The notes under the pieces were generated by a model. It was not told the DNA's origin and made no database searches. It worked only from the letters and a program-made list of their open reading frames with translations. Below are positions 3,355-58,352 of a stretch of 64,000 nucleotides of DNA, piece after piece. The translations under genes and the position numbers were made by a program. The stretch comes from Tillus elongatus. Its lineage: Eukaryota; Arthropoda; Insecta; Coleoptera; Cleridae. The stretch is from the NCBI GenBank assembly GCA_964006375.1, contig OZ023266.1:69960891-70024890 (forward strand). Reading direction: 5' to 3'. The stretch's first letter is position 1. Every line of letters starts with the position of its first letter.

Positions 3355-3394
3355 GACCTAATTATCGTTTCACTAACAAAATTAGCGTCATCAG
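3355..3394 (-). ncRNA. Hammerhead-like motif in PLE tail (degenerate)
   Basis: The minus strand reads CTGATGA, one extra C, GCTAA-TTTTG-TTAGT as helix II, then GAAAC and GATAATTAGGTC. CCT before the first box can pair with AGG after the cleavage region (helix I). Helix III is weakened, with A where the intact relatives have CG. The order of boxes is that of a type I hammerhead ribozyme. The single base between CTGATGA and helix II is shared with every other PLE copy here. Confidence 0.55.
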
Positions 3395-3582: not shown

Positions 3583-3872
3583 TCAAAGAGGCATTGCGAA
3601 CACCGGACTATTTATCAGTGGCGGTGCTTGGTTCGGGAAAATTTTGCTGTTTGTGGCTTTAGAGCTATAAATACTCTCATAGGCGTCTAATTGCATCGGT
3701 TGTCTAACATTTTTGATATGCTTCAGGTTTTCTTCATCTATGTGGTGATTACTATCCCAAATATGTTGAACCACGCATGACTTGTCTATACTATCGTATC
3801 TCAGTTGTCCCAAATGTTCCTTAAATCTGCTTTCAATGGTTCTTTTTGTTTGCCCAACCTATTTAAGATTAC
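3583..3872 (-). pseudogene. PLE GIY-YIG endonuclease C-terminal fragment
   Basis: The minus-strand translation reads CNLK, then a stop, then VGQTKRTIESRFKEHLGQLR, and continues through VVQHIWDSNHHID and a KNVRQPMQLDAYES segment to the stop at 3583. The G-Q-T-K-R...R-F-K-E-H core is the typical middle of a GIY-YIG domain, and H-x-W-D-S-N-H-H is the usual following helix. One in-frame stop (TAG) and the absence of RT mark it as dead. The same protein segment occurs twice, facing itself, at 27.8-28.1 kb. Confidence 0.75.
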
Positions 3873-4277: not shown

Positions 4278-7200
4278 CAGTGGCGTAACTATACTCACTA
4301 ATAATTGTCACGTTGTAATTTAATTTTAATAAATCACTTAACTAGTTACTCAACAGTATTACTAATATTGTGTGCATTTTAGTTAAATAGTTAAATATCT
4401 AATACATCTTATTTTCAAAAGCATAGGTATTATATAATTTTAATGAAATAACAATTTTGTATTAACAATATATTTATTAATAAAATTCTTTTCTCCAAGC
4501 TTTCTGTTCCGCAAAAGTATCAAAGTTTAAAGATTGGGCCATAGAATTTTCAATAGACAGAATAGCCAAGTTACGTAGCCTGTCTTGTCCCATAGAGTTT
4601 CTTAAATATGTTTGTATTAATTTTAGTTTCGAAAATGATCTTTCAGCACTAGCTGTAGTCATAGGAGTTGCAACAAACAACATTAATGCAGTACATACTT
4701 CAGGAAAGCTGCACGACATAAAATGATTCTTTATTAATAATAAATCAGCAAGTTCTCTAATACACGAAGACTTTTCTATTTCGTCTCTGAAGTTAGACCG
4801 AAAAGAGAATTTCCCTGGAAAATGATTCAAATATGTCTTTTTTATATATATCAACAAATTCTGGAGCTTTTTTTAATAGTACAGTGTCATCTAAATTTTG
4901 CAAAGTGGCAGGTTGCAAAACACTGAAATTGGAAACAATTTCATCCATTGGAAGGAAACGGAATTTCAGTTGATTGATGTCTAATACTCGATAAAATGTT
5001 CACTTTGAGCAAACTTTCCGGGTCTTGGAGACGCCCATCTTCGCAAAGTTCGTCTTCCTCTGACGAGTTTTAAAAAATTCAGGGTTGATGGACCATTTCT
5101 CTGCTACACTATTTGCTTCCTTTTTTAAATTTTCAAATTCATGTCGATACCTTTTCAATTCTTCGAGACAAATTTTCAAATGTTTTAAGGCATTTAAAAA
5201 ATCGGTGGCTCTAGACTGAAGTGCTTTAGAGGCTGCACCGATTGTTTGTAGAATTCTGCAATGGAAAACCAACAACATAATAAAATTGTGATTCTCGATC
5301 TTCTTGAGTGAAATAGCTTCATTTCTTTCATCTGATTTGCAATTTAACAGAATTGTTTTCGTTGGGGCTTTTTGGACTTGAACAATCCGAACTTTTAAAG
5401 CAAAAATAGCATCATAATATCCTACCCATCTGGTACGGTTCAATGCTTTTAATGTTATCGAAGTTGAAGACTCCCTTTCTTTATCAGTTATAAAATTTGG
5501 TAAGATATTCCATCTTTTGATACTATGCCCAAAAAAATGATACATTTGTTGAACTGTTTCAAAAAAATGTTGTAAATCAATTCTTGTCTTACTGCATTAT
5601 TAAATACCAGATTTAAGTTATGAGCAGCACAGTAAACATATTCCGCATTTGGCTCAATATCTTTTATGAGTTTTTGAACTCCACCATAAGTGCCTTTCAG
5701 TGTGTTAGCACCATCATATCCTTCTCCTCGATACTTATTTAGAGGAATATGATAGAGTAAAATGGTGCGGCATTTATTTCATTTATGAGTGCATTTTGTA
5801 TTTTTAGAACCAGAACAGAAATGAGCTTATTTTTTATTTTTTGACTTAAGTATTTTATCTGGCCCTTTGGTTTATTCTTGTAAAATTGGATCGTACTTTG
5901 CTAATAACTCAACAATACTCAAAAAGTTTCCTCGAGAACTTGTATTATTGCTATCTGGCTTTTCTCTGTGCACACGGAAGGCTAACTTACACGTTGAAAG
6001 TGTCAGATTAACATCACGGAGTCTAGAGAGTACTTGGAGCCAAAAAGATTTTTCTTTCTTGATCATGGACTCTTGCTCTTCATCTAGTGTTCCATCTAGC
6101 CCCATTGTTGATACGTAAGACAAAAATCCAGGTAAATTTTCGATGTCTCTTGTCTTTCTATGGCGTCTACAATATGTTTTTAGTCGTCATAGCCTTCCAT
6201 CCAAACATTTTGTATTTTTTTTAGATGCACGATTGGTGAATAACCAACATGATTCACAACACGCCTTCTGAAGTGTTAAGGAATAGGATATACATGTACA
6301 TTCAAGTTTCACGCCAGACTAGGAAACAATATAGTAATGTTTTTTCTAGGAAAGATCTATTGTCACCGTCTTTTAAGAGAGGACCCGTAGGTTTACAATG
6401 CCCGTTTTCGATAACGAACCATTTCACTTGATCATTTTGTTCTGTAAAATTACCCTTATCAGTAATAATAGATGGTGAAGATGCAATATTGTTCACACTA
6501 AAATATGATTCACTTTGATTTTTGCTTGTAGCTTGTTGTGGTTGTTCAGGATCTGGATATACACTGGTGTCGGGTGCTGCATCTGATATACTGTTACTTT
6601 TTGTTACGTCCAATTCTTCACTTTCGGAGGACTGTTCACTCGCCTTTTCATTAATAAAGTCATAACTCTTAAAGTACTGACTAATTTTAGGTAACTTTTA
6701 TTTTTTCTTCAGGCCCCTTCTTTCGCTTTCGTTCTCCGCTCCCACTTAGATCTTTTCTAGAACTAGACGTGTTGAATTGTTGATATCTAACTTTCAAAAT
6801 TAACTTAACTTTGCCTCTACTAGTATATTTGGATATTGGATAAAACAAAAACTACAAAAAATCAAAGATACAAATGACCAATTGTCATAACAATCAAATA
6901 ATGCGTAGTAGAGCCCTCCGTACTTAAAAAAATAGAAATCCTGGATTATCCTAACATCGTGCGTCGCTAGCCCGTCAGCGCCATGAAAAAGGTACTTGCT
7001 TCGTTAACAAAATGCGGGAATTCCCAGAGCATTACTAGCTCCTCCGCGCCACCAAAGTACCGCGAGAAAAAATGAAACAACCAATGGATGCGTTCTAAAC
7101 TTGATCGTCATCCTATTCTCATGAACACGTTTAAATCTTAATAATTTATTCGAATTGGTATATGGTCTTTAGTTGTGTCTAACTTTAATTGATTTTAAAT

Positions 7201-7295
7201 ATGTACTTATGTAAAATTTATAATTTTTACTAAATTTTTTTAAAACCGGGGGTCGGGGGCCCATGGCATTTTTCCACCCTATAGTTACGCCACTG
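4278..7295 (-). mobile_element. hAT DNA transposon, decayed, TIRs and 8-bp duplication
   Basis: The left end CAGTGGCGTAACTATA and the right end TATAGTTACGCCACTG are inverted repeats and fit the hAT terminal rule YARNG. The flanking octamers GAGTTAGC (4270-4277) and CAGTTAAC (7296-7303) agree at 6 of 8 positions, as expected for an old 8-bp target duplication. Length is about 3.0 kb. The transposase lies on the minus strand and is broken into several frames. The (TA)n arrays found elsewhere are absent inside it. Confidence 0.88.
4477..6613 (-). pseudogene. hAT transposase (zinc finger / DUF4371 / dimerisation type), frameshifted
   Basis: Reading from 6613 down: a Ser/Asn-rich start, then VKWFVIENGHCKPTGPLL, the start of the TTF-type zinc-finger segment of this subfamily. 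Near 6123-5872 comes a segment with SFWLQVLSRLRDVNLTLS, resembling DUF4371. Around 5700 a region reads GEGYDGANTLKGTYGGVQ and CAAHNLNLVFNNAVRQ, the second catalytic Asp and C-x2-H region. The end (4857-4477) is the hAT dimerisation region: FPEVCTALMLFVATPMTT, then ASAERSFSKLKLI. Stops and frameshifts between segments show it cannot encode an active enzyme. Confidence 0.85.
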
Positions 7296-7303
7296 CAGTT
7301 AAC

Positions 7304-7758
7304 AAAAAGGATATAAGAAATGGGTATACTTGTTAGTTGATATTCACATCACTACACTACACATTATAATTTCTTGAACGCAAATTTTGACATAGAGTTT
7401 GTGGTATCAGCTTGTTGATATTTTTAATATAGGTTATACAGTTTTCTGTACTTCCTTTCTGTTATAAAAGGTTTAGAGGAAATACTCCAAAATAATGACT
7501 TGAGAGTTGTTTATAAAGTTGATAATTTAAAGAGCCTTTGGGTCCTGGATCAAAGGGTACTGTTACATCCTTCTCTATGAGGGTTAAGTTTATGCACTCG
7601 TAGATCATATTACATTTCAATGTATTACCTCTATGGTCACAGGCAATTTGTAGAGTGTGTTAATATTAGCAGACGCTCTGGAATTATATTTCTAGAAGGA
7701 ACCAGAAATGACAGGTCTAGATTCTGTATCGACGCCATCTAGGTGCTGAACCAAGTAG
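7304..7758. other. Spacer with one short open minus-strand frame
   Basis: A minus-strand frame of about 60 codons runs from roughly 7645 down to the stop near 7468 and includes VPFDPGPKGSLNYQLYKQL. I do not recognise it. It could be part of a retroelement ORF or chance. The rest is AT-rich. Confidence 0.3.
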
Positions 7759-7964
7759 TACATTGTCCCAGTATTAGGGAAGAAAATGGGCCAGGGCGGA
7801 CAATTTACAAAAATTTTTAGTTGGTTGTACACAGTCTATTTATAACATTTTGTGTTAATTGGAGCTGTCGTGACAACATATTACCTAGTTCCGCACCGAG
7901 ATGGCACCCTATCGTACATATTACAATGTTCTAGGAAGCTGGCTGCCTTAGCCGTATTACTTTA

Positions 7965-8059
7965 TAGATATATTCTCGCTGTAATCCGTATAGCATACTG
8001 ATGAGCTCTAATTAGAGCGAAACCGGTCTGCGTTTCTAATTATGGTGAGAATATATCTA
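7965..8059 (+). ncRNA. Type I hammerhead ribozyme, array copy 1, all core bases intact
   Basis: Core at 7998-8028: CTGATGA (7998-8004), helix II GCTCT-AATT-AGAGC (8005-8018), GAAAC (8019-8023), then CGGTC with predicted cleavage after C8028. Helix III is the minimal self-complementary ACCGGT. Helix I is long: TAGATATATTCTC (7965-7977) pairs perfectly with GAGAATATATCTA (8047-8059), and GCTGTAAT (7978-7985) pairs with ATTATGGT (8039-8046) through Watson-Crick and G-U pairs, 21 bp in all. Near the core A7997-T8029, T7996-G8030, C7994-G8032 and A7992-T8034 can pair around an internal loop. The helix I internal loop could provide the tertiary contact typical of natural hammerheads. Confidence 0.9.
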
Positions 8060-8276
8060 GCCTCACATACATTGTCATGGTATTAGGGAAGAAAATGGGT
8101 CAGATCTCACAATTCACAAAAATTGTTGGTTGATTGTACACAGTCTCTATTTATAAAATTCTGTGTTAATTGGAGCTGTCGTGGCAAGATACTACCTAGT
8201 TCCACACCGAGATGGCGACCCTGTCGTACATCTCACAATGTTCTAGGAGGCTGGCTGCCTTAGCCGTATTACTTTA

Positions 8277-8371
8277 TAGGTGTGTTCTCGCTGTAATTCG
8301 TATAGCATACTGATGAGCTCTGATTAGAGCGAAAGCGGTCTGCGTTTGTAATTATGGTGAAAATATATCTA
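8277..8371 (+). ncRNA. Hammerhead motif, array copy 2, helix III mutated
   Basis: CTGATGA lies at 8310-8316 and helix II is GCTCT-GATT-AGAGC at 8317-8330. The second box reads GAAAG instead of GAAAC, so the base pair C15.2-G16.2 is lost, although GGTC remains at 8337-8340. Outer helix I TAGGTGTGTTCTC / GAAAATATATCTA still pairs, using three G-U wobbles and one mismatch. Activity is probably reduced or absent. Confidence 0.8.
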
Positions 8372-8579
8372 GCCTTGCATACATTGTCCCGGTATTAGTG
8401 AAGAAAATGGGCCAGTGCTGACAATTTACAAAAATGTTGGTTGGTTGTACACAGTCTCTATTTATATAAGATTTGTGTTAATTTGAGCTGTCGTGACAAC
8501 ATACTACCTGGTTCCGCACCGAGATGGCGTACATTTCACAATGTTCTAGGAGGCGGGCTGCCTTAGCCGTATTACTTTA

Positions 8580-8674
8580 TAGGTGTGTTCTCGCTGTAAT
8601 TTGTATAGCGCAATGACGGGATCTAGTTAGAGCCAAACCGGTCAGCGTTTCTAATTTTGGTGAGTATACATATA
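8580..8674 (+). ncRNA. Hammerhead relic, array copy 3, inactivated
   Basis: The first box has decayed (AATGACGG in place of CTGATGA) and the second reads CAAAC, replacing the essential G12. ACCGGTC is retained at 8637-8643. Helix I arms are partly preserved. This copy should not self-cleave. Confidence 0.7.
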
Positions 8675-9160
8675 GCCTTACATACATTGTCCCAGTATTA
8701 GCGAAGAAAATGGGCTAGGGTTGACAATTTACAAAAATTGTTGGTTGGTTGTACACAGCCTCCATTTATAACATTTTGTGTTAATTGCAGCTGCCGTGAC
8801 AACATATTACCCGGCTCCGCACCAAGATGGCGACCATGTCGTACATGTCACAATGTTGAAGATATTTGCTAAATTACGGTTGCAATTTACTGTTATTTGT
8901 TGTCCATTTTCTTAAATTCATATTCGTCGTCGCTAATATATCAACAGCTTTCCTGTGTAACTTCTTTACAGTTTTATAGTATTAATTTTTACAATGAAAA
9001 CATTTTTTTAAATTGTTTTTTACAACGTTAGAATGTTTTCTTAGAACTGCTGCTTGTTAAAACGGATGTACTCCAAATGTAACATGGTTCATTTTACATA
9101 ACAAACTATGTAAGCACACTTGGAGAAACCCAATCACCACAACACATATTTTAAAGACAT

Positions 9161-9195
9161 AACGATCGTTTCGCTAACAACGTTAGCTTCATCAG
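9161..9195 (-). ncRNA. Hammerhead-like motif in PLE palindrome, left arm
   Basis: The minus strand reads CTGATGA, one extra A, helix II GCTAAC-GTT-GTTAGC, GAAAC and GATCGTT. Helix II is a perfect 6-bp stem. Helix III is the short palindrome ACGATCGT, with U as the base at the predicted cleavage site. Helix I next to the core is poor in this copy (CCA against ATG). Confidence 0.6.
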
Positions 9196-9394
9196 TGGAT
9201 GAAAAATTCTAAAATAATTTTTTGCTACAACCTATATTTATATACATTGTTAGGTAGACGAACGAAACCGAAGGTAAGATTTTAGTCGAAGCGCATCTTT
9301 CGACTAAAATTTTTCCTTCGGTGTCGTTCGTCTACCTAAGAATTTATATAAATATAGGTTGTAGCAGAAACTTAGTTTAGTATTTTTTCATCCT

Positions 9395-9429
9395 CTGATG
9401 AAGCTAAAGTTCTTAGCGAAACGATCGTT
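9395..9429 (+). ncRNA. Hammerhead-like motif in PLE palindrome, right arm
   Basis: CTGATGA, one extra A, GCTAA-AGTTC-TTAGC, GAAAC and GATCGTT in order. CCT just before the first box and AGG just after the cleavage region can form helix I, and CATC / GATG further out extend it. The extra nucleotide sits in the same place as in the other PLE copies. Confidence 0.62.
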
Positions 9430-9476
9430 AGGTCTTTAGAAGATGTGTTGTGGTGATTGGGTTTCTCCAAGTGTGC

Positions 9477-10259
9477 CTATAAGTGCTCATCACAGGTTCC
9501 AACCTTCGCTTAGTAGTAATAAGGAACTCTGATTAGCCCTCTCCTTTTCAGCTAAAGCAATCTGTAAGAAAGCCTTTCTTCGTTATCTGGTATAGGTAAT
9601 TACACTGGCAAATAGTTCAATAACATCAGAATTAGGTCAAAAACCATATTTTCACCAGGGTTTAATGGATGATGCAATGACCCGTGACCCTCGTAAGCCG
9701 AACACCGGCACTACCATCAAATACCACAGGTTGTTGTTTTTGTTGTTTTTTTTTGTTCATTCCATAAACGGCTGGAAGATTAAAAAAATCTGGAAGGTCG
9801 TTATTTTTTCCATAATTGTTTCTTTTATATTCAGGAATGACTTCATCATATTTAAGGAGTTTTTCAGTTGCTTGTAATAATTTTGTTAATGTCTGAACTC
9901 TATAGTGTCATTAGTATAGTTAGAGAGACATATTCTTAAATTATTGTCCAATGTTTAAACTGCATCATATCTCTGACAGTTAAATACAATATTGATTTTT
10001 ATAAACTGGTTTTCTTTGTTCACAAAAATTACCTGCTTCTGTTTGTTTCGTACTTATAAATCCCAGTTCCCAGAAATTACTCTACTTCTGGTGTTGTAAC
10101 ACTGTTGCCAGATTTGCGTGACATGTAAAGTCCAACAAACCAGTGTATGAACGCGTTAAGGAATCAAAATACGTAAACTATCTCTGGATACAATTCGCCA
10201 GTAATTATATGATCTAAGATTGATTCCTGATATAGGCTGTATTCCACAGACTCATACAC
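9477..10259. other. Spacer without recognised gene
   Basis: The first 40 bases continue the PLE tail (GTGCTCATCACAGGTTCC). The 70-codon frame at 9665-9877 has no recognisable homology. The rest is AT-rich. Confidence 0.4.
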
Positions 10260-11165
10260 TTTTTTTTAATTTCAACAACACACCACGAGCGCTTACAGCC
10301 TAAATACTATCGTACCGTGGGTGTTGACAAGGAGGAAAGAGGCAGCTTGTTAATTCTGGACTTGGAGGTTTGGAGGTTCAGAGGAGAAGGAAAAACATGT
10401 GCCGGCATGGAATTCCACAACTTGGAAGTCCTCGGGACAAAAGAGCCGGCATAACAAGATGTTCTATGTCTGGTGACCTGGACAGTAAAAGGGTGCATTC
10501 GCTCTGTTCCCCTGGTAGATCTGTTGGGGGCAGCAGGTGGAGAAACTATGGAGGAAAGCTCCTCTGAGCAGTGCCCGTGCAGATATCTATAAAAGAGAGA
10601 GAAAGGTCACCAACGGCACGTCGGTGGGCAAGCGATGGCAGCCTTTGGGTGACGGTAGGGTCACTGATGAGACGTATAGCTCTCTTTTGAATGGAGTCCA
10701 GGATAGCGAGTGTAGAAGCGGCAGCGGCACCCCAGATGTGGGAGCAGTATTCGAGGTTTGGCCTTATTTGTGAAGTATATAAGGTATAGAGATTAGCTGG
10801 TGAAAAGTATTTGCGAGTCCGGAAGAGGAAACCTAATTTCTTAGCAGCCGCTTCTGCAATTGATGTGACATGTTGGTGCCAATTAAGATATCGATCCCCA
10901 GAAATGCCAACAAGAGAAAAGGACTCATTACTTTGAATAACTTGGTTGTTCATTGTGATGGGTCTAGGGCTGGTGTATCTCTTGTGAGAAAGAAAGCAAG
11001 ACTTAGTTTTGGTGGGGTTGAATTGTAGAAGATATCTACTTCCCCACTCTAATATTTTTTGGAGATCCACGGAGATAGAACCCTCCATGAGTCTGCGATC
11101 CTCATCTAATTGGGCTAAAGAGACAGGCTTAGAATATTGTATATTTGAATGGAGGGTGCTGTGTG
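10260..11165 (-). pseudogene. LINE (Jockey/CR1-like) 3' fragment: RT C-terminal region
   Basis: The minus strand reads from 11165 down. A frame ending at 10546 contains ISVDLQKILEWGSRYLLQFN, KTKSCFLSHK, SLVGISGDRYLNWHQHV, AAAKKLGFLFRTRKYF and SQIRPNLEYCSHIWG, the thumb and connector region of non-LTR reverse transcriptases. A shifted frame (10498-10307) continues with SFVPRTSKLWNSMPAHVFP, the usual C-terminus of this clade. On the plus strand the element ends in an A/T-rich run TTTTTTTTAATTTC, its poly(A)-like tail. It is a 5'-truncated relative of the long copy at 18.5-21.6 kb, with which it shares both the protein end and the tail. Confidence 0.85.
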
Positions 11166-18464: not shown

Positions 18465-19154
18465 AGGTTTTTTTTATTTCAACAACACACGACAAGGGCT
18501 TACAGCCTCAATACTATCGTATCGTGGGTGTTCACAAGGAGGAAAGAGGAAGCTTGTTAATTCTGGACTTGACGGTTTGGAGGTTCGGAGGAGAAGGAAA
18601 AACATGTGCCGGCAAGGAATTCCACAACTTGGAAGTCCTCGGAACAAAAGAGCGGGCATAACAAGATGTTCTAAGTCTGGTGACCTGGACAGTAAAAGCG
18701 TGCATTCGCTCTGTTCCCCTGGTAGATCCGTTGGGGGCAGCAGGTGGGGGAACTATAGAGGGAAGCTTCTCTGAGCAGTGCCCGTGCAGATATCTATAAA
18801 AGAGAGAAAGGTCACTAACGGCACGTCGGTGGGCAAGGGTTGGCAGCCTTTGGGTAAGGGTAAGGTCACCGATGAGACGTATAGCTCTCTTTTAAATGGA
18901 GTCCAGGATAGCGAGTGTAGAAGCGGCAGCTGCACCTCAGATGTGGAAGCAGTATTCGAGGTTTGGCCTTATTTGTGAAGTATATAAGGTATAGAGATTA
19001 GCTGATGAAAAGTATTTGCGAGCCTGGAAGAGGAAACCTAATTTCTTAGCAGCCGCTTCTACAATTGATGTGACCTGTTGGTGCCAATTAAAATTTTGAT
19101 CCACAGAAATGCCAACAAGAGGAAAGGACTCATTACTTTGAATAACTTGGTTGT

Positions 19155-20915
19155 TCATTGTGATGGGTCTAGGGCTGGTGTATCTCTTGTGAGAAAGAAA
19201 GCAAGACTTAGTTTTGGTGGGGTTAAATTGTACAAGATTTCTACTTCCCAGTCTAATATTTTTTGGAGATCCACGGAGACAGAACCCTCCATGAGTCTGC
19301 GATCCTCAGAGACAGGCTTAGAATATTGTATATTTGAATGGAGGGTGCTGCCGTCGACGTAGCTGTGAACTGGGTTGGATGTGCTAGATAGGAGGTCATT
19401 GATGCGGAGATGAAACAAAGTAGGGGCTAAAGCTGAACCTTGAGGAACTCCTGCATTAATTGGATACAGTTTAGAGGAATGGCTATCCACAACAACAGAT
19501 ATGCTCCTGTTGGAGAGGAAATTTGCTGTCCAGGTACAAAGTTTTGGTGGTAGGCCATAGGCCGGTAGTTTATTAAGCAGCGCTGCGTGCCAGACCTGGT
19601 CGAATGCTTTTGATATGTCTAGAGCAACAATCTGGGATTCACCGTGTTGCTCTATAGACTTGTTCCAAGAATGGGTGACAAAGGAAAGGAGGTCGGCAGT
19701 CGATCTGCGCTGACGGAATCCATACTGCCTGTCGTGGATTAGACTGTGTTTTTCAAGAAGTTTTAGAAATTTGGTGTTTATATACTTTTCCATCACTTTA
19801 GAGACGACTGAAAGGAGAGAAATAGGCCTGTAGTTGCTAGGAAGCGCTTTGGATCCTTTCTTGGGGATGGGTTGTACTCGAGCAGTTTTCCAGTTACTAG
19901 GCAATATGCCTTTATTATAAGATACCTGAAACAGACGAGTCAGGACAGGAGCAAGCTCTGGTGCGAATTTTTTGAGAACAATTGCTGGGATCTCGTCACA
20001 GCCAGAGGCTTTCCTGATATTAAGAGAAGAGATCATCTTTCGTACCTTTTTAGTTTTGAAAATGATATCCGTCATTTTATGCGCGACATTGGGGACTGTT
20101 GGTGGTTGAACATTTGGAGGTGGGTTGAGAGTAGAATTGCCGGCGAACAACGAAGCAAAAAGTTCAGCCTTGCCCAGGGCGGTAGAAACAATTTCATCCC
20201 CTGAGACAAGAGGTAGGAACGTGCTTCTGCAGAAATTATTACCAATAGATTTAGCAAGAGTCCAGAAGGGTTTGCCGCCGTTGGAGCTTAAGACGACTTT
20301 CTTTTGGATGTGGTTATTAAACGAGTTTTTTGCCTCAGAAAGAATGCGGACATAGCGGTTTCTTGCGTCGTTAAATGCTTGACGATTTTCGTGACTGGGA
20401 TTGTGTAGAAGCGTTTTGTGAGCTTTGACCTTTTCAAGTCTGGCCTTGTCACAGGATATAGAGAACCAGGGCTTTTGAGTGTCTGAAGAGGTTTTCTGTG
20501 TACGTGGGATAAATAATTCCATGCCAGCTTGGATAATTTCTGTGACGTTTTGTAAGATATCAGAGGAGTCAGGATGAGAGAAGCAGACAGACGCCCATGG
20601 AAATGAGGAAAAGTAATCCCGCATTTCGTCCCAATTTGCGGAGTTGTAGTGCCAAACGATACGTGGGTGTGATGACTGTGTGACCTCGGGTTGCATTGCG
20701 CAGGAAGCAGTGACCATGCCGTGGTCTGAGCGACCAAGGGGGGCGGTGACTGATATCTTATAGCATTCAGGTTGTGTAGTAAGAAGGGATTTGAGCTGTG
20801 TGTTGGGATACGAGGAGAGTAAGTAGGTTGCTGAACCATATTGGCTAAAGAATTGCTGACTGCAAAGGCCTCCGCTGCTCTCCCTTGTGGATCTGTTTTT
20901 GAAGATACTAGCCAT
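19155..20915 (-). pseudogene. LINE reverse transcriptase with mutated YADD box
   Basis: A 586-codon open frame covers the end of the endonuclease and most of the RT. RT blocks seen: RVQPIPKKGSKALPSNYRPI, then YGFRQRRSTADLLS, motif A ALDISKAFDQVWH, motif B GVPQGSALAPTLF, motif C YVDGSTLH. Family members have Y-A-D-D at motif C; the second Asp is Gly here, which removes a catalytic residue. The thumb and C-terminal part continue in other frames (19158-18937, 18935-18753, 18659-18474). It reads through without a stop for 1.76 kb, so the insertion is not very old. Confidence 0.88.
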
Positions 20916-27809: not shown

Positions 27810-27953
27810 TTTCGTAAGCATCTAGCTGACGCGACTGTCTAACATTTTTGATTAGCTTATCCCAAATATGCTGAGCAATACATTATTTATCAATAGTGCC
27901 ATATTTCAATTGCGCTAAATGTTCTTTAAACCTAGTTTCATTGGTTCTTTTAG
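27809..27953 (-). pseudogene. PLE GIY-YIG C-terminus, left arm
   Basis: The minus strand gives TKRTNETRFKEHLAQLKYGT, IDK, stop, [20 protein letters not shown] and DAYES, and then runs into (TA)n. It is homologous to the fragment at 3583-3872. The H-I-W-D-(S)-N-H-H turn has been shortened. Confidence 0.72.
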
Positions 27954-27961
27954 TTTTTAGT

Positions 27962-35885: not shown

Positions 35886-36015
35886 GTTAGTGAATTTTCT
35901 TAGAAAAAATTCACTAATGAGGAGATCTCGACTTTTAAATTTTGAAAAAATTTCTTCAAATGAGCGCGATCTAGGACCCCTAGAACCCATATCCGGGGTC
36001 AGTTTCAATTTTTAT

Positions 36016-38247
<2,232 letters not shown>

Positions 38248-38340
<93 letters not shown>
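38248..38340. repeat. (TA)n then (TG)n microsatellite, right of the nested insertion
   Basis: Right half of the MIME copy D core; the last 14 bases are GT repeats. Confidence 0.93.
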
Positions 38341-47559: not shown

Positions 47560-49940
47560 ACATCAGGGGTACCCCGGTACCTACTAAAATTAAAACTTAT
47601 TTTGTTCCAAATTTTTAACTTTGGGGCACAGTAATAAAAAATTAACACTCTTTATTTGAAAAAGTATATTAATTTTGTAATATTTTTTATTACAATAATT
47701 CTTTTACAGTTTGCAATTGTAACACTTATTTATTTTCTCACAATGTTCGTCGCATATTGGGCGACTACAAACGTCACACGATTTTCTGGTTTTTCTCTGT
47801 CTTTTTGTAGCAGCTCGACACACGTAACATTTACCTGTTACTTAAAGGCGTCTGGTTTTATCTCTGGGATGATTCTTTTCTACAACCGGCGGTGGCAGTT
47901 GGTATGCTAATAGACCTCCTAACATGCACTAAATTCTCGATTTTGTACTAAAATGTTGTGACACCTTTGGCGATTTGGCACTCAATTCTATGCTTGGTCT
48001 AGATAATTGCTTTCCAAGTTCTTGAAGAAATTTTCGACCATAATTTTTTTTCTTCTAAAGAGGGTTATTTTCAGTATAAATAATATATGCTGCTAATCCT
48101 GCTATATCAAGCATGTTATAAAACATTGCAAGAGGCCAACGGTTTGTTCGACGTTTGACATAGTAGTGCGACACCATCTTATCCACATTATCAACACCAC
48201 CTTTACCTGAATTGTAATAATGGATTATTTCAGGTTTTTTCTTTGAACCAGATACATTTGCAGTGTCGTGCATTGTGAATAAGAGTATTACAGCTTTTCG
48301 CTGTTTTCGTACGTATGAAACCAGTGTGATATTATTCTCAGAAAATCCAAACGTAGAAGAATGTTCTTCCCTACTTTTATTTGGCAACATCTCTGGCGAT
48401 ATATAAGGTGTATTTTTTTAGCGTACCCACAACAGAAAGATTCTATGACATTAGAAACCGAGCTAAGAGAAGTGTGGTGAAAAAATTATCCATCACAACA
48501 TTTCTCCCACTATTTTTATAATGAATGCATAAATCTTTTACCACACGCTCACCTTGATTTTGTTCGCGACCTTGCGATGATTTCCCTGTATAAATTTGCC
48601 CCACAAGAGGGTAAGAATTAGCTGAACCGCACACCCATCAAATTTTTACACCATATTTGGAAGGTTTGGCTGGCATATACTGCGTGAACCTGGTCCTGCC
48701 TCTATACGGAAATAGTTTTTCGTCTACCGTTAGGCATTCAGACGGTGTATAATTCAATTTCAAATTTTGCATCAATAGAAGCCAAAGTTCTGAGATAGCA
48801 GCTGCTTTATCAGTTTTCAATCTATCGGTTCTGGTATTCATATTGTCAAAACGTACACATCTTTGGATGGAATAAAATCTGTTGACTGACATTGTCGCAC
48901 GGTATAATAGGTAAGCATCACTTTTCACAAGTCACTCAAATTTTCTTTCTTAGAGTGTCGCACTCCAGCAGTAATCAGTATCCCGAGATAACCATCAAAT
49001 TCTTCTTGTATGAGAGGTTTCCAAATTTTTGGTGGTTTGTTGGAATGCTGTTTATTTCTCTCCGCGTGGATGGTTTTGGCTTTGCGGTTTGTTTCTCGAA
49101 TTATAATGTTGCACATTTCTGGAGTAAAAATGCGTGCGAAAGTTTCCCGAACTGAGAGGGAATTTGTTGTCTTCAAAGGTCTACATTTTTTTCGCAAAAT
49201 GTTTTGACAGCGTTTGACGAGCAGGCATTGGTGGACTGGCTTGCCAGATAGTTCAGTTTTTAGAACGCAAAACTAGGTCATCACAATTATCAACCTCGAA
49301 CTCTAGCTGCTCATCTTCAGAATTGTGTTTCTCGGCAATTTTAATTTCATTCTCAGTGTCAAGCAAAACATCTTCTATGTCTGATTCTTCTGCTTGGTTA
49401 TTTGTTGATGACAACAAAGGCGGTAAATATTCGTCTTCTGATTCAGAGTCTTCAGTTTGTTCATTGTCGTTATCACTCTCTGAATCAGATTCCATAGCAT
49501 TTAATTCCTGAAAATAACTTACTTGCTGTTCATAACTCATTCTGTAAATAATCAGATACTTAGGAAAAATGTCCAAAATTACAAGAAAAATTAAGTTTTT
49601 TTTATCATTTATCACTTGTATAATCTACGTACCGTTTGAATTCAGAACTCGAAACTTCCCTAAATTTTTCTGCCATTCCGAAAACTGACTAATCGCAGTA
49701 CAATTTCCAATCGAAAATAATATCGGATCACGAAAACAATTCTCCGAAATGCAGAATCCGTTGTTGTCAACAAAACACTGACCGGAAGTATGTAAGCCGA
49801 AACGGCTCAAAAAACTTTTCTCGGAACATCAGATGTGACATTATAACTATAACTATTTATAAGAATTAGAAAACTAATGATTTCTAGAATGGTAGGACAA
49901 TAATTATTGCAGGTACCCGGATACCCTTGAGGTGTATTAT
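47560..49940 (-). mobile_element. piggyBac-like transposon, decayed
   Basis: A broken piggyBac transposase on the minus strand lies between two GGTACC-rich ends: GGGGTACCCCGGTACCTAC at 47566 on the left and GGTACCCGGATACCCTTGAG at 49913 on the right, inverted to each other over about 16 bp. A further GGGTACCTGGGTAC lies at 47392. TTAA is present just beyond the right end (GCGTTAAAAT), but the exact duplication could not be fixed. Confidence 0.75.
47640..49615 (-). pseudogene. piggyBac transposase (DDD), frameshifted
   Basis: An acidic N-terminus (MESDSESDNDNEQTEDSESE) is typical. Then RETFARIFTPEMCNIIIRET; KPLIQEEFDGYLGILITAGV; LTVDEKLFPYRGRTRFTQYM with AKPSKYGVKI (first catalytic Asp in V-D-E); NVVMDNFFTTLLLARFL (second Asp); GKGGVDNVDKMVSHY with RRTNRWPLAMFYNMLDIAG (third Asp). 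A Cys-rich tail (CYVC, KSCDVC, CDEHCEK) follows near 47820-47700. All three Asp remain, but the frame changes at least five times and stops interrupt it. Confidence 0.88.
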
Positions 49941-55149: not shown

Positions 55150-58100
55150 CAGGGTGTTTACGGAAATCGGGAACAATAGCTATCTTCGTTATTATTTGAG
55201 CTACAAAGTCGGTTAAATGGGCAAAGTTGACCAACTGGACACCCCGCTTCTGAATATGTCACCGATATCTAGATTGCATAACAACTGTCAAATATGTTGA
55301 CATAACCTCCATTTTTTTAAATGGAACGATACGAATATTTTGCATTCAATCTACTCAGGGCAAGCCATTCTATACGTACGTATAATAGTCTTTCCATCCC
55401 ATTTAAATATTCCGAAGATAACTTGATCCCAAATGTTGCCAATTGTAGGTGTTTACGGAAATCGGGAACAATAGCTATCTTCGTTATTATTTGAGCTACC
55501 AAGTCGGTTAAATGGACAAAGTTGACCAACTGGACACCCCGCTTCAGAATATGTCACAGATATCTAGATTGCATAACAACTGTCAAATCTGTTGACATAA
55601 CCTCACTTTTTTTAAATAGAACGATATGAATATTTTGTGTTCAATCAACTCAGGGCAAGCCATTTTATATGCACACATAATAGTTTTCCATCCCAATAGA
55701 ATATTCCGAAGATAACTTGATCACAAATGTTGCCAATTGTAGGTGTTTACGGAAATCGGGAACAATAGCTATCTTCGTTATTATTTGAGCTACGAAGTCG
55801 GTTAAATAGGCAAAGTTGACCAACTGGACACCCCGCTTCCGAATATGTCACGTATATCTAGATTGCACAACAACTGTCAAATCTGTTGACATAACCTCAA
55901 TTTTTTTAAATGGAATGATACAAATATTTTGCGTTCAATCGACTCAGGGCAAGCCATTCTATACGTACACATAATATTCTTTCCATCCCAGTACAATATT
56001 CCGTAGATAACTTGATCCCAAACGTTGCCAATTGTAGGTGTTTACCGAAATCGGGAACAATAGCTATCTTCGTTATTATTTGAGCTACAAAGTCGGTTAA
56101 ATAGGCAAGGTTGACCAACTGGATACCCCCCTTGTAAATATGTCACGGATATCTAGATTGCACAACAACTATCAAATCTGTTGACATAACCTCAATTTTC
56201 TTAAATGGAACGATACGAATATTTTGCGTTGAATCTACTCAGGGCAAGCCATTCTATATGTACACATAATAGTATTTCCATCCCAATAGAATATTCCAAA
56301 GATAACTTGATCACAAATGTTGCCAATTGTAGGTGTTTACGGAAATCGGGAACAATAGCTATCTTCGTTATTATTTGAGCTAACAAGTCGGTTAAATTGA
56401 CAAAGTTGACCAACTGGACACCCCGCTTCTGAATATGTCACGGATATCTACATTTCACAACAACTGTTAAATCTGTTGACATAACCTCAATCTTTTAAAA
56501 TGTAACGATATGAATATTTTGCATTCAATCGACTCAGGGCAAGCCATTCTATACGTACACATAATAGTCTTTTCATCCTGGTACAATATTCCGAAGATAA
56601 CTTGATCACAAACGTTGCCAATTGTAGGTGTTTACGGAAATCGGATTGGCCATGGAGGTACAGTTGAATGGTCGCCAAGATCGCCCGATTTGACCCCATT
56701 GGACTCTTCAATATGGGGTACAATAAAGGACGATGTTTACGCATCAAGAGTGGATAGTCTGGACGAATTGAAGTTAAAAATCAGGAATTCAGTCAACAGA
56801 ATTTCTGTACAGACCCTTCAAAGAATACAGTCCAATATATTGAAGAGAGCAATATTATGCCTGAATCATAACGGTGGGCATTTTGAGCAATATTTGTAAT
56901 TATTTATTCGTTTTTAGGAAATAAAATTTAGTTTTAAATATACATGTGTATTTGTACAGTGGCTCGCCCTGAGTCGATTAAACGCAAAATATTCATATCG
57001 TTCTATTTAAAAAATGAGGTTATGTCAACAGAATTGACAGTTGTTGTGCAATCTAGATATCCGTGACATATTCAGAAGAGGGGTGTCCAGTTGGCCAACA
57101 TTGCCCATTTAACTGACTTTATAGCTCAAATAATAACGAAGATAACTATTCTTCCCGATTTCCGTAAACACCTACAATTGGCAACGTTTGGGATCAAGTT
57201 ATCTTCGGAATATTCTACTGGGATAGAAAGACTATTATGTGTACGTATAGAATGGCTTGCTCTGAGTCGATTGAACGCAAAATATTCATATCAATCCATT
57301 TAAAAAAATTGAGGTTATGTCAACAGATTTGACAGTTGTTGTGCAATCTAGATTTCCGTGACATATTCAGAATCGGGGTATCCAGTTAGTCAACTTAGCC
57401 TATTTAACCGACTTTATAGCTCAAATAATGACGTAGATAGCTATTGTTCCCGATTTCGGTAAACACCTACAATTGGCAACGTTTGGGATCAAGTTATCTA
57501 CGGAATAATGTACTGGGATATAAAGACTATTATGTGTACGTATAGAATGGCTCGCCCTGAGTCGATTAAACGCAAAATATTCATATCGTTCTATTTAAAA
57601 AATGAGGTTATGTCAACAGAATTGACAGTTGTTGTGCAATCTAGATATCCGTGACATATTCAGAAGAGGGGTGTCCAGTTGGCCAACATTGCCCATTTAA
57701 CTGACTTTATAGCTCAAATAATAACGAAGATATCTATTGTTCCCGATTTCGGTAAACACCTACAATTGGCAACGTTTGGGATCAAGTTATCTACGGAATA
57801 TTGTACTGGGATGGAAAGACTATTATGTGTACTTATAGAATGGCTTGCCCTGAGTCGATTGAATGCAAAATATTCATATCGTTCCATTTAAAAAAAATCA
57901 GGTTATGTCAACAGATTTGACAGTTGTTGTGCAATCTAGATATCCGTGACATATTCAGAAGCGGGGTGTCCAGTTGGTCAAATTTTTCTATTTAACCGAC
58001 TTCGTAGCTCAAATAATAACGAAGATAGCTATTGTACCCGATTTCCGTAAACACCTAGAATTGGCAACGTTTGGGATCAAGTTATCTTTGGAATATTGTA

Positions 58101-58352
58101 CTGGGATGGAAAGACTATATGTGTAAGTATAAAATGGCTTGCCCTGAGTCGATTGAACACAAAATATTCATATCGTTCCATTTAAAAAAATTGAGGTTAT
58201 GTCAACATATTTGACAGTTGTTATGCAATCTAGATATTCGTGACATATTCAGAAGCGGGGTGTCCAGTTGGTCAACTTTGGTTATTTAACCGACTTTGTA
58301 GCTCAAATAATAACGAAGATAGTTATTGTTCCCGATTTCCGTAAACACCCTG
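55150..58352. mobile_element. DDE_3-type transposon with inverted arrays of ~294-bp units, TA duplication
   Basis: Ends CAGGGTGTTTACGGAAATCG and CGATTTCCGTAAACACCCTG are inverted, each next to TA (55148-55149 and 58353-58354). The left arm has GTTTACGGAAATCGGGAAC at about 55155, 55450, 55743, 56037 and 56336, with the next at 56629 joined to transposase sequence. The right arm has the reverse words near 57148, 57450, 57742, 58037 and 58337. The centre (56644-56950) is the end of a transposase gene and its 3' flank with AATAAA (56921). The parent was probably a normal transposon whose subterminal unit amplified in both arms. Confidence 0.88.
56641..56899 (+). pseudogene. DDE_3-type transposase C-terminus
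   Basis: RIGHGGTVEWSPRSPDLTPL with DSSIWGTIKDDVY, DELKLKIRNSVNRI, ILKRAILCLNHNGGHFEQYL, stop. The W-x-P-R-S-P-D-L-T-P-L-D motif and the G-G-H-F-E-x-x-L end are shared with the minus-strand relic at 52.6-53.6 kb. Only the last ~85 codons remain, open to the natural stop, and the upstream part is replaced by repeat units. Confidence 0.85.

Follow-up and report, generated by a model that had tools for sequence, protein, structure and literature searches.

A hammerhead-bearing tandem array in the beetle Tillus elongatus with features of a metazoan non-LTR retrozyme

The tandem array and its hammerhead motifs

The window analysed here, a 64-kb stretch of the Tillus elongatus genome, contains an array that TRF resolves as one array of 3.6 copies with a period of 312, at 7759–8857; a second TRF row, with a period of 303, describes the same array. 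Divided at TACATTGTC, it falls into units of 309, 312 and 303 bp, followed by a partial fourth unit of 175 bp.

7759..8067, plus strand: unit 1, 309 bp (TRF, alignment, nhmmer)
8068..8379, plus strand: unit 2, 312 bp (TRF, alignment, nhmmer)
8380..8682, plus strand: unit 3, 303 bp (TRF, alignment, nhmmer)
8683..8857, plus strand: unit 4, partial, first 175 bp, without a hammerhead (nhmmer)

The initial annotation had described three tandem units of about 310 bp with a type I hammerhead in every one, and the TRF analysis bore the units out at the lengths listed. The tandem array was located as proposed, while the feature as a whole reaches further left, to 7732. The array has a GC content of 0.41, and its longest open stretch in six frames over 1099 bp is 58 codons, in agreement with the earlier description of the unit as non-coding. 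When the units were used as nhmmer queries against the 64-kb window, no further copy with E <0.1 was found outside 7713–8880, and the BLAST matches of the array in the window (query 6500–11000) were confined to the array itself. Pairwise identity between units, counted over shared columns, is 84–90%, which describes the decay state of the locus. The majority consensus differs from units 1–4 at 11/309, 21/311, 25/302 and 13/174 positions, a series in which the claimed growth of decay along the array appears only weakly.

The hammerhead is recognisable in all three full units, and its core is complete in two of them.

7998..8028, plus strand: complete type I hammerhead core of copy 1, with predicted cleavage after 8028 (Rfam HH9, descriptor scan)
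7965..7985, plus strand: 5' strand of outer helix I, copy 1, partner 8039–8059
8039..8059, plus strand: 3' strand of outer helix I, copy 1, partner 7965–7985
8310..8340, plus strand: hammerhead core of copy 2, in which the catalytic bases are intact and helix III, AGCGGT, is no longer palindromic
8613..8643, plus strand: hammerhead remnant of copy 3, with substitutions at C3, A9 and G12 and a helix III that is still palindromic

In copy 1, the core runs in the order CTGATGA, stem II (5 pairs, loop AATT), GAAA, ACCGGT and C, and helix III consists of one A-U pair closing the palindromic CCGG. The core bases, the ACCGGT sequence of a minimal helix III and the 21-bp outer helix I claimed for this copy were all confirmed. 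Five of the six pairs of inner helix I are formed, and the third pair from the cleavage site is an A.C mismatch, at which copy 3 has G and C in the alignment. The description of copy 1 as intact therefore holds for the catalytic core, which is complete, but not for helix I, which carries this mismatch. The inner and outer helices are separated by an internal loop with 6 nt on one side and 4 nt on the other, and a helix I internal loop of this type is the layout of canonical type I hammerheads.

The conserved core CUGANGA / GAAA / UH is present in copies 1 and 2 and absent in copy 3. Two of 31 positions set copy 2 apart from copy 1: one lies in loop II, the other is position 2 of helix III. The core damage previously read in copy 2 (GAAAG) was not found; copy 2 retains GAAA, and the base that changes from C to G belongs to helix III. 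Copy 3 had rightly been called decayed, as its core is destroyed, but the core region carries 6 differences from copy 1 in 31 positions, not one, and three of them affect essential bases (C3, A9 and G12). Because of these core differences, copy 1 is formally complete, copy 2 is impaired in helix III and copy 3 is dead. Standard pairs occupy 21/21 positions of outer helix I in copy 1, 20/21 in copy 2 and 18/21 in copy 3. Three of the 21 pairs vary among the copies yet stay paired, one of them occurring as A-U, G-U and G-C, a variation that rests on three related copies, too few for a covariation test; four pairs are broken, each in one copy (copy 2 or 3).

At the gathering threshold, no Rfam family matched anywhere in the window. 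The best Rfam match of copy 1 was Hammerhead_HH9 (RF02275), at 24.9 bits and E 0.0015 in a 1201-base search. Since the gathering score of this family is 52, we did not assign copy 1 to RF02275, and the covariance match anticipated for this copy was obtained in E-value but stayed below the family's gathering score. In the same search, copy 2 matched HH9 at 18.1 bits (E 0.22) and copy 3 was absent from the matches. A descriptor combining core and helices, run on both strands of the window, retrieved copies 1 and 2 only, as compared to a mean of 0.15 matches per Markov-simulated window (60 simulations); copy 2 satisfies the descriptor only through a non-canonical register of helix III. The fold z-scores of copies 1, 2 and 3 were -6.5, -5.4 and -1.5, with 0, 0 and 16 of 200 shuffles each being as stable.

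Predicted folding and relation to known retrozymes

The best predicted fold of copy 1 (95 nt, -39.1 kcal/mol) is not a hammerhead. The hammerhead fold reaches -28.6 kcal/mol without helix III and -22.9 kcal/mol with the single helix III pair. A lone RNA can hardly form helix III, because only an A-U pair closes CCGG. Between two molecules, the helix III duplex ACCGGU/ACCGGU is predicted at -8.3 kcal/mol, whereas the duplex between copies 1 and 2 of the present array is predicted at only -4.7 kcal/mol. For the predicted circular monomer (8029–8340, 312 nt), the folding energy was -96.0 kcal/mol as compared to a shuffle mean of -73.2 kcal/mol (z -4.4, n=150). Its pairing, 67% versus 63% in the shuffles, is hardly higher, and the predicted circular fold also lacks the hammerhead.

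A similar arrangement has been described for HHR_Amex1 of the axolotl, in which a one-pair helix III carries a palindromic tetraloop; its monomer self-cleaves to 6% per hour, and dimers cleave far better (PMC7229834). Copy 1 shares the one-pair helix III and the palindromic tetraloop, while HHR_Amex1 belongs to another host group and another unit (PMC7229834); the likeness drawn here is one of description. By analogy, a transcript of tandem units would be cut, and a monomer circle, once released, would not be reopened.

Metazoan non-LTR retrozymes are described as non-coding tandem units of about 150–450 bp with GC <45% and a type I hammerhead in every unit. They lack LTRs, a PBS and a PPT, are scattered over the genome and give rise to linear and circular monomer RNAs; a TSD, when present, is >4 bp, and its absence is allowed (PMC7229834). 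The array agrees with this description in its unit sizes of 309, 312 and 303 bp, its tandem plan, its non-coding sequence, its GC of 0.41, the type I hammerhead of each full unit and its stable predicted circle, and the retrozyme-like interpretation of the initial annotation is supported on these grounds. The array differs in that its unit has no gathering-level Rfam match and in that the left end of this locus carries an inverted fragment; the word "inverted" does not occur in the searched text of PMC7229834. Given that such repeats are reported to occur in insects among others and to be species-specific in sequence (PMC7229834), a new unit sequence was to be expected. The pDo500 satellite of Dolichopoda cave crickets is likewise an insect satellite with hammerhead ribozymes, likened here by description (PMC2837043, PMC2808323). 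Among five listed papers that mention both the hammerhead ribozyme and Coleoptera, no title pointed to a beetle retrozyme.

We consider that a non-autonomous metazoan non-LTR retrozyme, of a new family within a known class, probably inserted here long ago and has since been decaying. Against this assignment speak the single locus found in 64 kb, the missing gathering-level Rfam match and TSD, the predicted monomer and circular folds without the hammerhead, and the mismatched or broken pairs of helix I. The presence of one short array in the window would also fit an ordinary satellite or tandem duplication, grown at the DNA level by unequal crossing-over, in which the hammerhead would be an inert fossil of an older element. 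The 10–16% divergence of the units and the dead core of one unit fit such a satellite as well, while the unit size and composition match those of retrozymes (PMC7229834).

Ends of the array

The two ends of the array carry inverted sequences of different kinds.

7732..7758, minus strand: inverted 27-bp copy of the unit interior, head-to-head with the left end of the array
7760..7766, plus strand: left terminal inverted repeat ACATTGT, exact reverse complement of 8850–8856
8850..8856, plus strand: right terminal inverted repeat ACAATGT, pairing with 7760–7766
8833..8857, plus strand: 25-bp right-end extension, missing from the inverted left piece (compare the "tail" of Penelope-like elements, PLEs)

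The segment 7732–7758 matches the reverse complement of 8504–8530 at 24 of 27 positions. Its local alignment score of 39 exceeds the maximum of 29 in 3000 simulated flanks, the maximum of 32 among 1044 60-mers from the window outside the locus, and the maximum of 33 among 80-mers elsewhere in the window on either strand. A longer left inverted repeat, tried by gapped alignment, was rejected, as the match takes many gaps past 7732. The inverted left piece halts at a point equal to 25 bp before the right end of the array.

The array starts with T-ACATTGT (TACATTGT) and finishes with ACAATGT-T. Of the possible start/end pairs, 32 of 97,344 drawn on unit 2 and 210 of 95,481 drawn on unit 1 have a 7-bp inverted match lying no more than 2 bp from either end. 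Seven Watson-Crick and two wobble pairs can join the end of a minus-strand cDNA, GACAATGTA, to TATGTTGTC on the same strand, a pairing from which the inverted piece would be copied. The terminal tests, including those on the inverted left piece, were devised post hoc, after the sequence had been seen, and applied to one locus. No TSD was found at the two ends; the best common run, AAAT, was matched by 909 of 1000 random pairs, and the only 6-mer common to both ends lies inside the element.

These ends bear on the alternatives. Growth by unequal crossing-over does not predict ends matched by an inverted repeat together with an inverted left fragment, and although no TSD was found, as would suit a satellite, we regard that origin as improbable. 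Terminal inverted repeats around internal tandem repeats would also be the plan of a foldback or MITE-type DNA transposon, for which the ACATTGT/ACAATGT pair, the inverted left piece and the self-pairing of the 175-bp module (-40.0 to -45.7 kcal/mol in its four copies) could be cited. However, the right-hand counterpart of the inverted left piece sits 25 bp inside the right end, the TSD is missing here too, and hammerheads with a kept outer helix would be unexpected in such an element, so that this origin appears very remote.

Penelope-like features in the window and a proposed route of insertion

About 250 bp to the right of the array, and not part of it, lies a head-to-head palindrome with a second hammerhead-like motif on each strand.

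9111..9479, no strand assigned: head-to-head palindrome with second-family motifs at 9195 (minus) and 9395 (plus); self-BLAST 88.8% over 374 columns
9195 (minus), 9395 (plus), 3394 (minus), 18430 (plus), 28487 (plus), 44453 (plus), 44424 (minus), 27431 (minus): copies of the second-family motif (motif scan)
3586..3858, minus strand: open frame just upstream of the second-family motif at 3394 (minus)

Counting the 9195 copy itself, eight copies in the window match it at 25 or more of 36 positions, as compared to at most 23/36 for 20 shuffled motifs. CTGATGA is present in six of the eight, GAAA in six and both in four, and the motif has an additional base ahead of stem II. In the 9195 copy, the stretch past GAA is palindromic, ACGATCGT, with a predicted energy of -10.0 kcal/mol as a duplex, and this feature is seen in the best copies. 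As a hammerhead, the second motif gave nothing at the gathering level in Rfam over the whole window, and in a permissive search of 9050–9550, which covers two of the eight motifs, no hammerhead appeared up to E 10. That search returned 18 matches (miRNA, sRNA, snoRNA and others) with E values down to 8e-11, all below gathering; we attribute the strongest of them to the long hairpin of the palindrome.

The minus-strand frame at 3586–3858 is taken by us, by eye, to resemble the C-terminal GIY-YIG endonuclease of PLEs. Support for GIY-YIG in this frame was found neither in Pfam, nor in the PDB (one match, E 0.48), nor in the protein database with length-limited candidates. A stretch at 27858–27956, between two more motif copies, is related to the frame (75.8% over 99 bp). 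The second family is perhaps derived from a PLE, and its repeat at 9111–9479 is possibly of a kind that could act as a helper.

A PLE-like family within the window also favors reading the array itself as a deletion derivative of a PLE or a pLTR array, with the 175-bp module as the pLTR and the hammerhead module of about 135 bp as a shrunken body. Its order I-II-I-II-I-II-I plus the inverted left fragment mirrors pLTR-body-pLTR with an inverted pLTR (PMC3846280), and the hammerheads of PLEs typically have a minimal helix III (PMC7761336). On the other hand, the unit holds no coding remnant, its longest open stretch being 58 codons. The array is also dissimilar to the PLE-like repeats of the window, as its only BLAST matches are to itself, and nhmmer agrees. 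The 6/4-nt internal loop of helix I, which we take as the canonical type I layout, likewise argues against a PLE derivative, and we consider this origin unlikely.

A retrozyme mobilized by a PLE is distinct from such a derivative. In retrozyme studies, the repeats are described as lacking a conserved motif that would reveal their helper (PMC7761336), and PLEs are regarded as strong helper candidates because the two kinds of element co-occur and both have hammerheads and tandem copies (PMC7229834). As PLEs are the proposed candidate for the helper, the anatomy of the junctions is the part of interest at this locus. PLE insertions share with the array a tandem plan, a 5' inverted fragment overlapping the direct repeat, a one-sided extension and a palindromic junction, and they occur at times without a TSD (PMC3846280, PMC11167929). 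The array carries short versions of these marks, with an overlap of 9 bp, a tail of 25 bp and an inverted piece of 27 bp; its direct and inverted terminal repeats with a tail are a short form, seen at a single locus. A PLE protein has been reported to initiate reverse transcription internally at two places, the distance between which is the tail of 30–40 bp (PMC11167929), and we infer the comparison of that tail with the 25-bp extension here (PMC11167929, PMC3846280). In contrast, the inverted pLTR of PLEs is near-complete as compared to 27 bp here (PMC3846280), the putative pLTR module does not include the hammerhead, and no ORF with RT and GIY-YIG domains, as expected of a PLE, was found in the array. 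In the only PLE examined in vitro, ribozyme mutants left insertion unimpaired, which speaks against the proposed reading of the array, and the ribozyme needed the protein to cut (PMC11167929).

We propose that a multimeric read-through transcript would fold, that two hammerheads would cut once paired via their palindromic helix III, ACCGGU, and that the monomers of about 312 nt would be ligated into circles. A monomer circle should resist re-cutting, because its lone helix III amounts to an A-U pair with a CCGG loop. A reverse transcriptase would then circle the RNA, producing a multimeric cDNA from ...ACAATGT to TACATTGTC, about 3.56 units on. The 3' end of this cDNA, GACAATGTA, could loop back onto the site derived from GACAACATA in the same molecule, form nine pairs (seven Watson-Crick and two wobble) and serve as primer for the 27-nt inverted piece, after which the cDNA would join the target. 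A PLE is the most likely source of the reverse transcriptase, an attribution to which we give nearly an even chance. More tentatively, animal retrozymes in general may be inserted by Penelope-type machinery, with a fixed start and end of reverse transcription flanking the stem of the circular RNA, a self-primed inverted end and a one-sided tail, although we would lean slightly against this wider claim. The PLE link is suspected from one locus. If it is true, a Penelope-type insertion would have left its direct footprint in the array. Which autonomous element moves animal retrozymes can be tested on insertion junctions, and if the fixed ends and the inverted fragment recur at other loci of the array's family, genome sequence could settle the identity of the helper.

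Several sequences outside the window were compared with the array. The stem II core pattern gave 0 matches in viral contigs, and a looser hammerhead pattern retrieved two viral stretches (L001 and L002), which we judged to lie close to the chance level. Two viral stretches (L003 and L004) and one stretch in genome contigs (L005) contain a 20-mer conserved in the unit. BLAST of 7732–8860 against L001–L005 yielded 17 rows, the longest of 32 bp. Because these matches sit at the pattern sites or span 12–15 bp elsewhere, all five stretches were set aside as chance and not kept as relatives of the array. The viral segment L001:53–82 is 87.5% identical over 32 bp to the copy 1 core, on which the pattern had been built, and could be chance or a phage hammerhead.

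The window contains further repeats. A 295-bp tandem repeat occupies two loci, 36166–38244 and 55153–58349, each with opposed arrays that are about 88–95% identical, and the first locus is bordered by TA microsatellites at 36013–36164 and 38248–38330. On the minus strand, 4480–4872 encodes a dimerisation piece of a hAT transposase (Pfam Dimer_Tnp_hAT, E 2.1e-10), to which the minus-strand frames up to 6697 may belong; those scanned gave no significant Pfam match. A transposase fragment, DDE_Tnp_1_7 (E 7.2e-17), which we presume to be of the piggyBac family, lies at 48641–48931 (minus). Two LINE stretches, 10261–11161 and 18468–19350, are 92.7% identical over 901 columns, and the latter adjoins a jockey-like RT frame at 19155–20915 (minus). 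This RT is 55% identical over 89% of the query to a sequence of the seed beetle Callosobruchus chinensis, the best named relative among the 120 listed of 1617 matches, with five closer ones above it.
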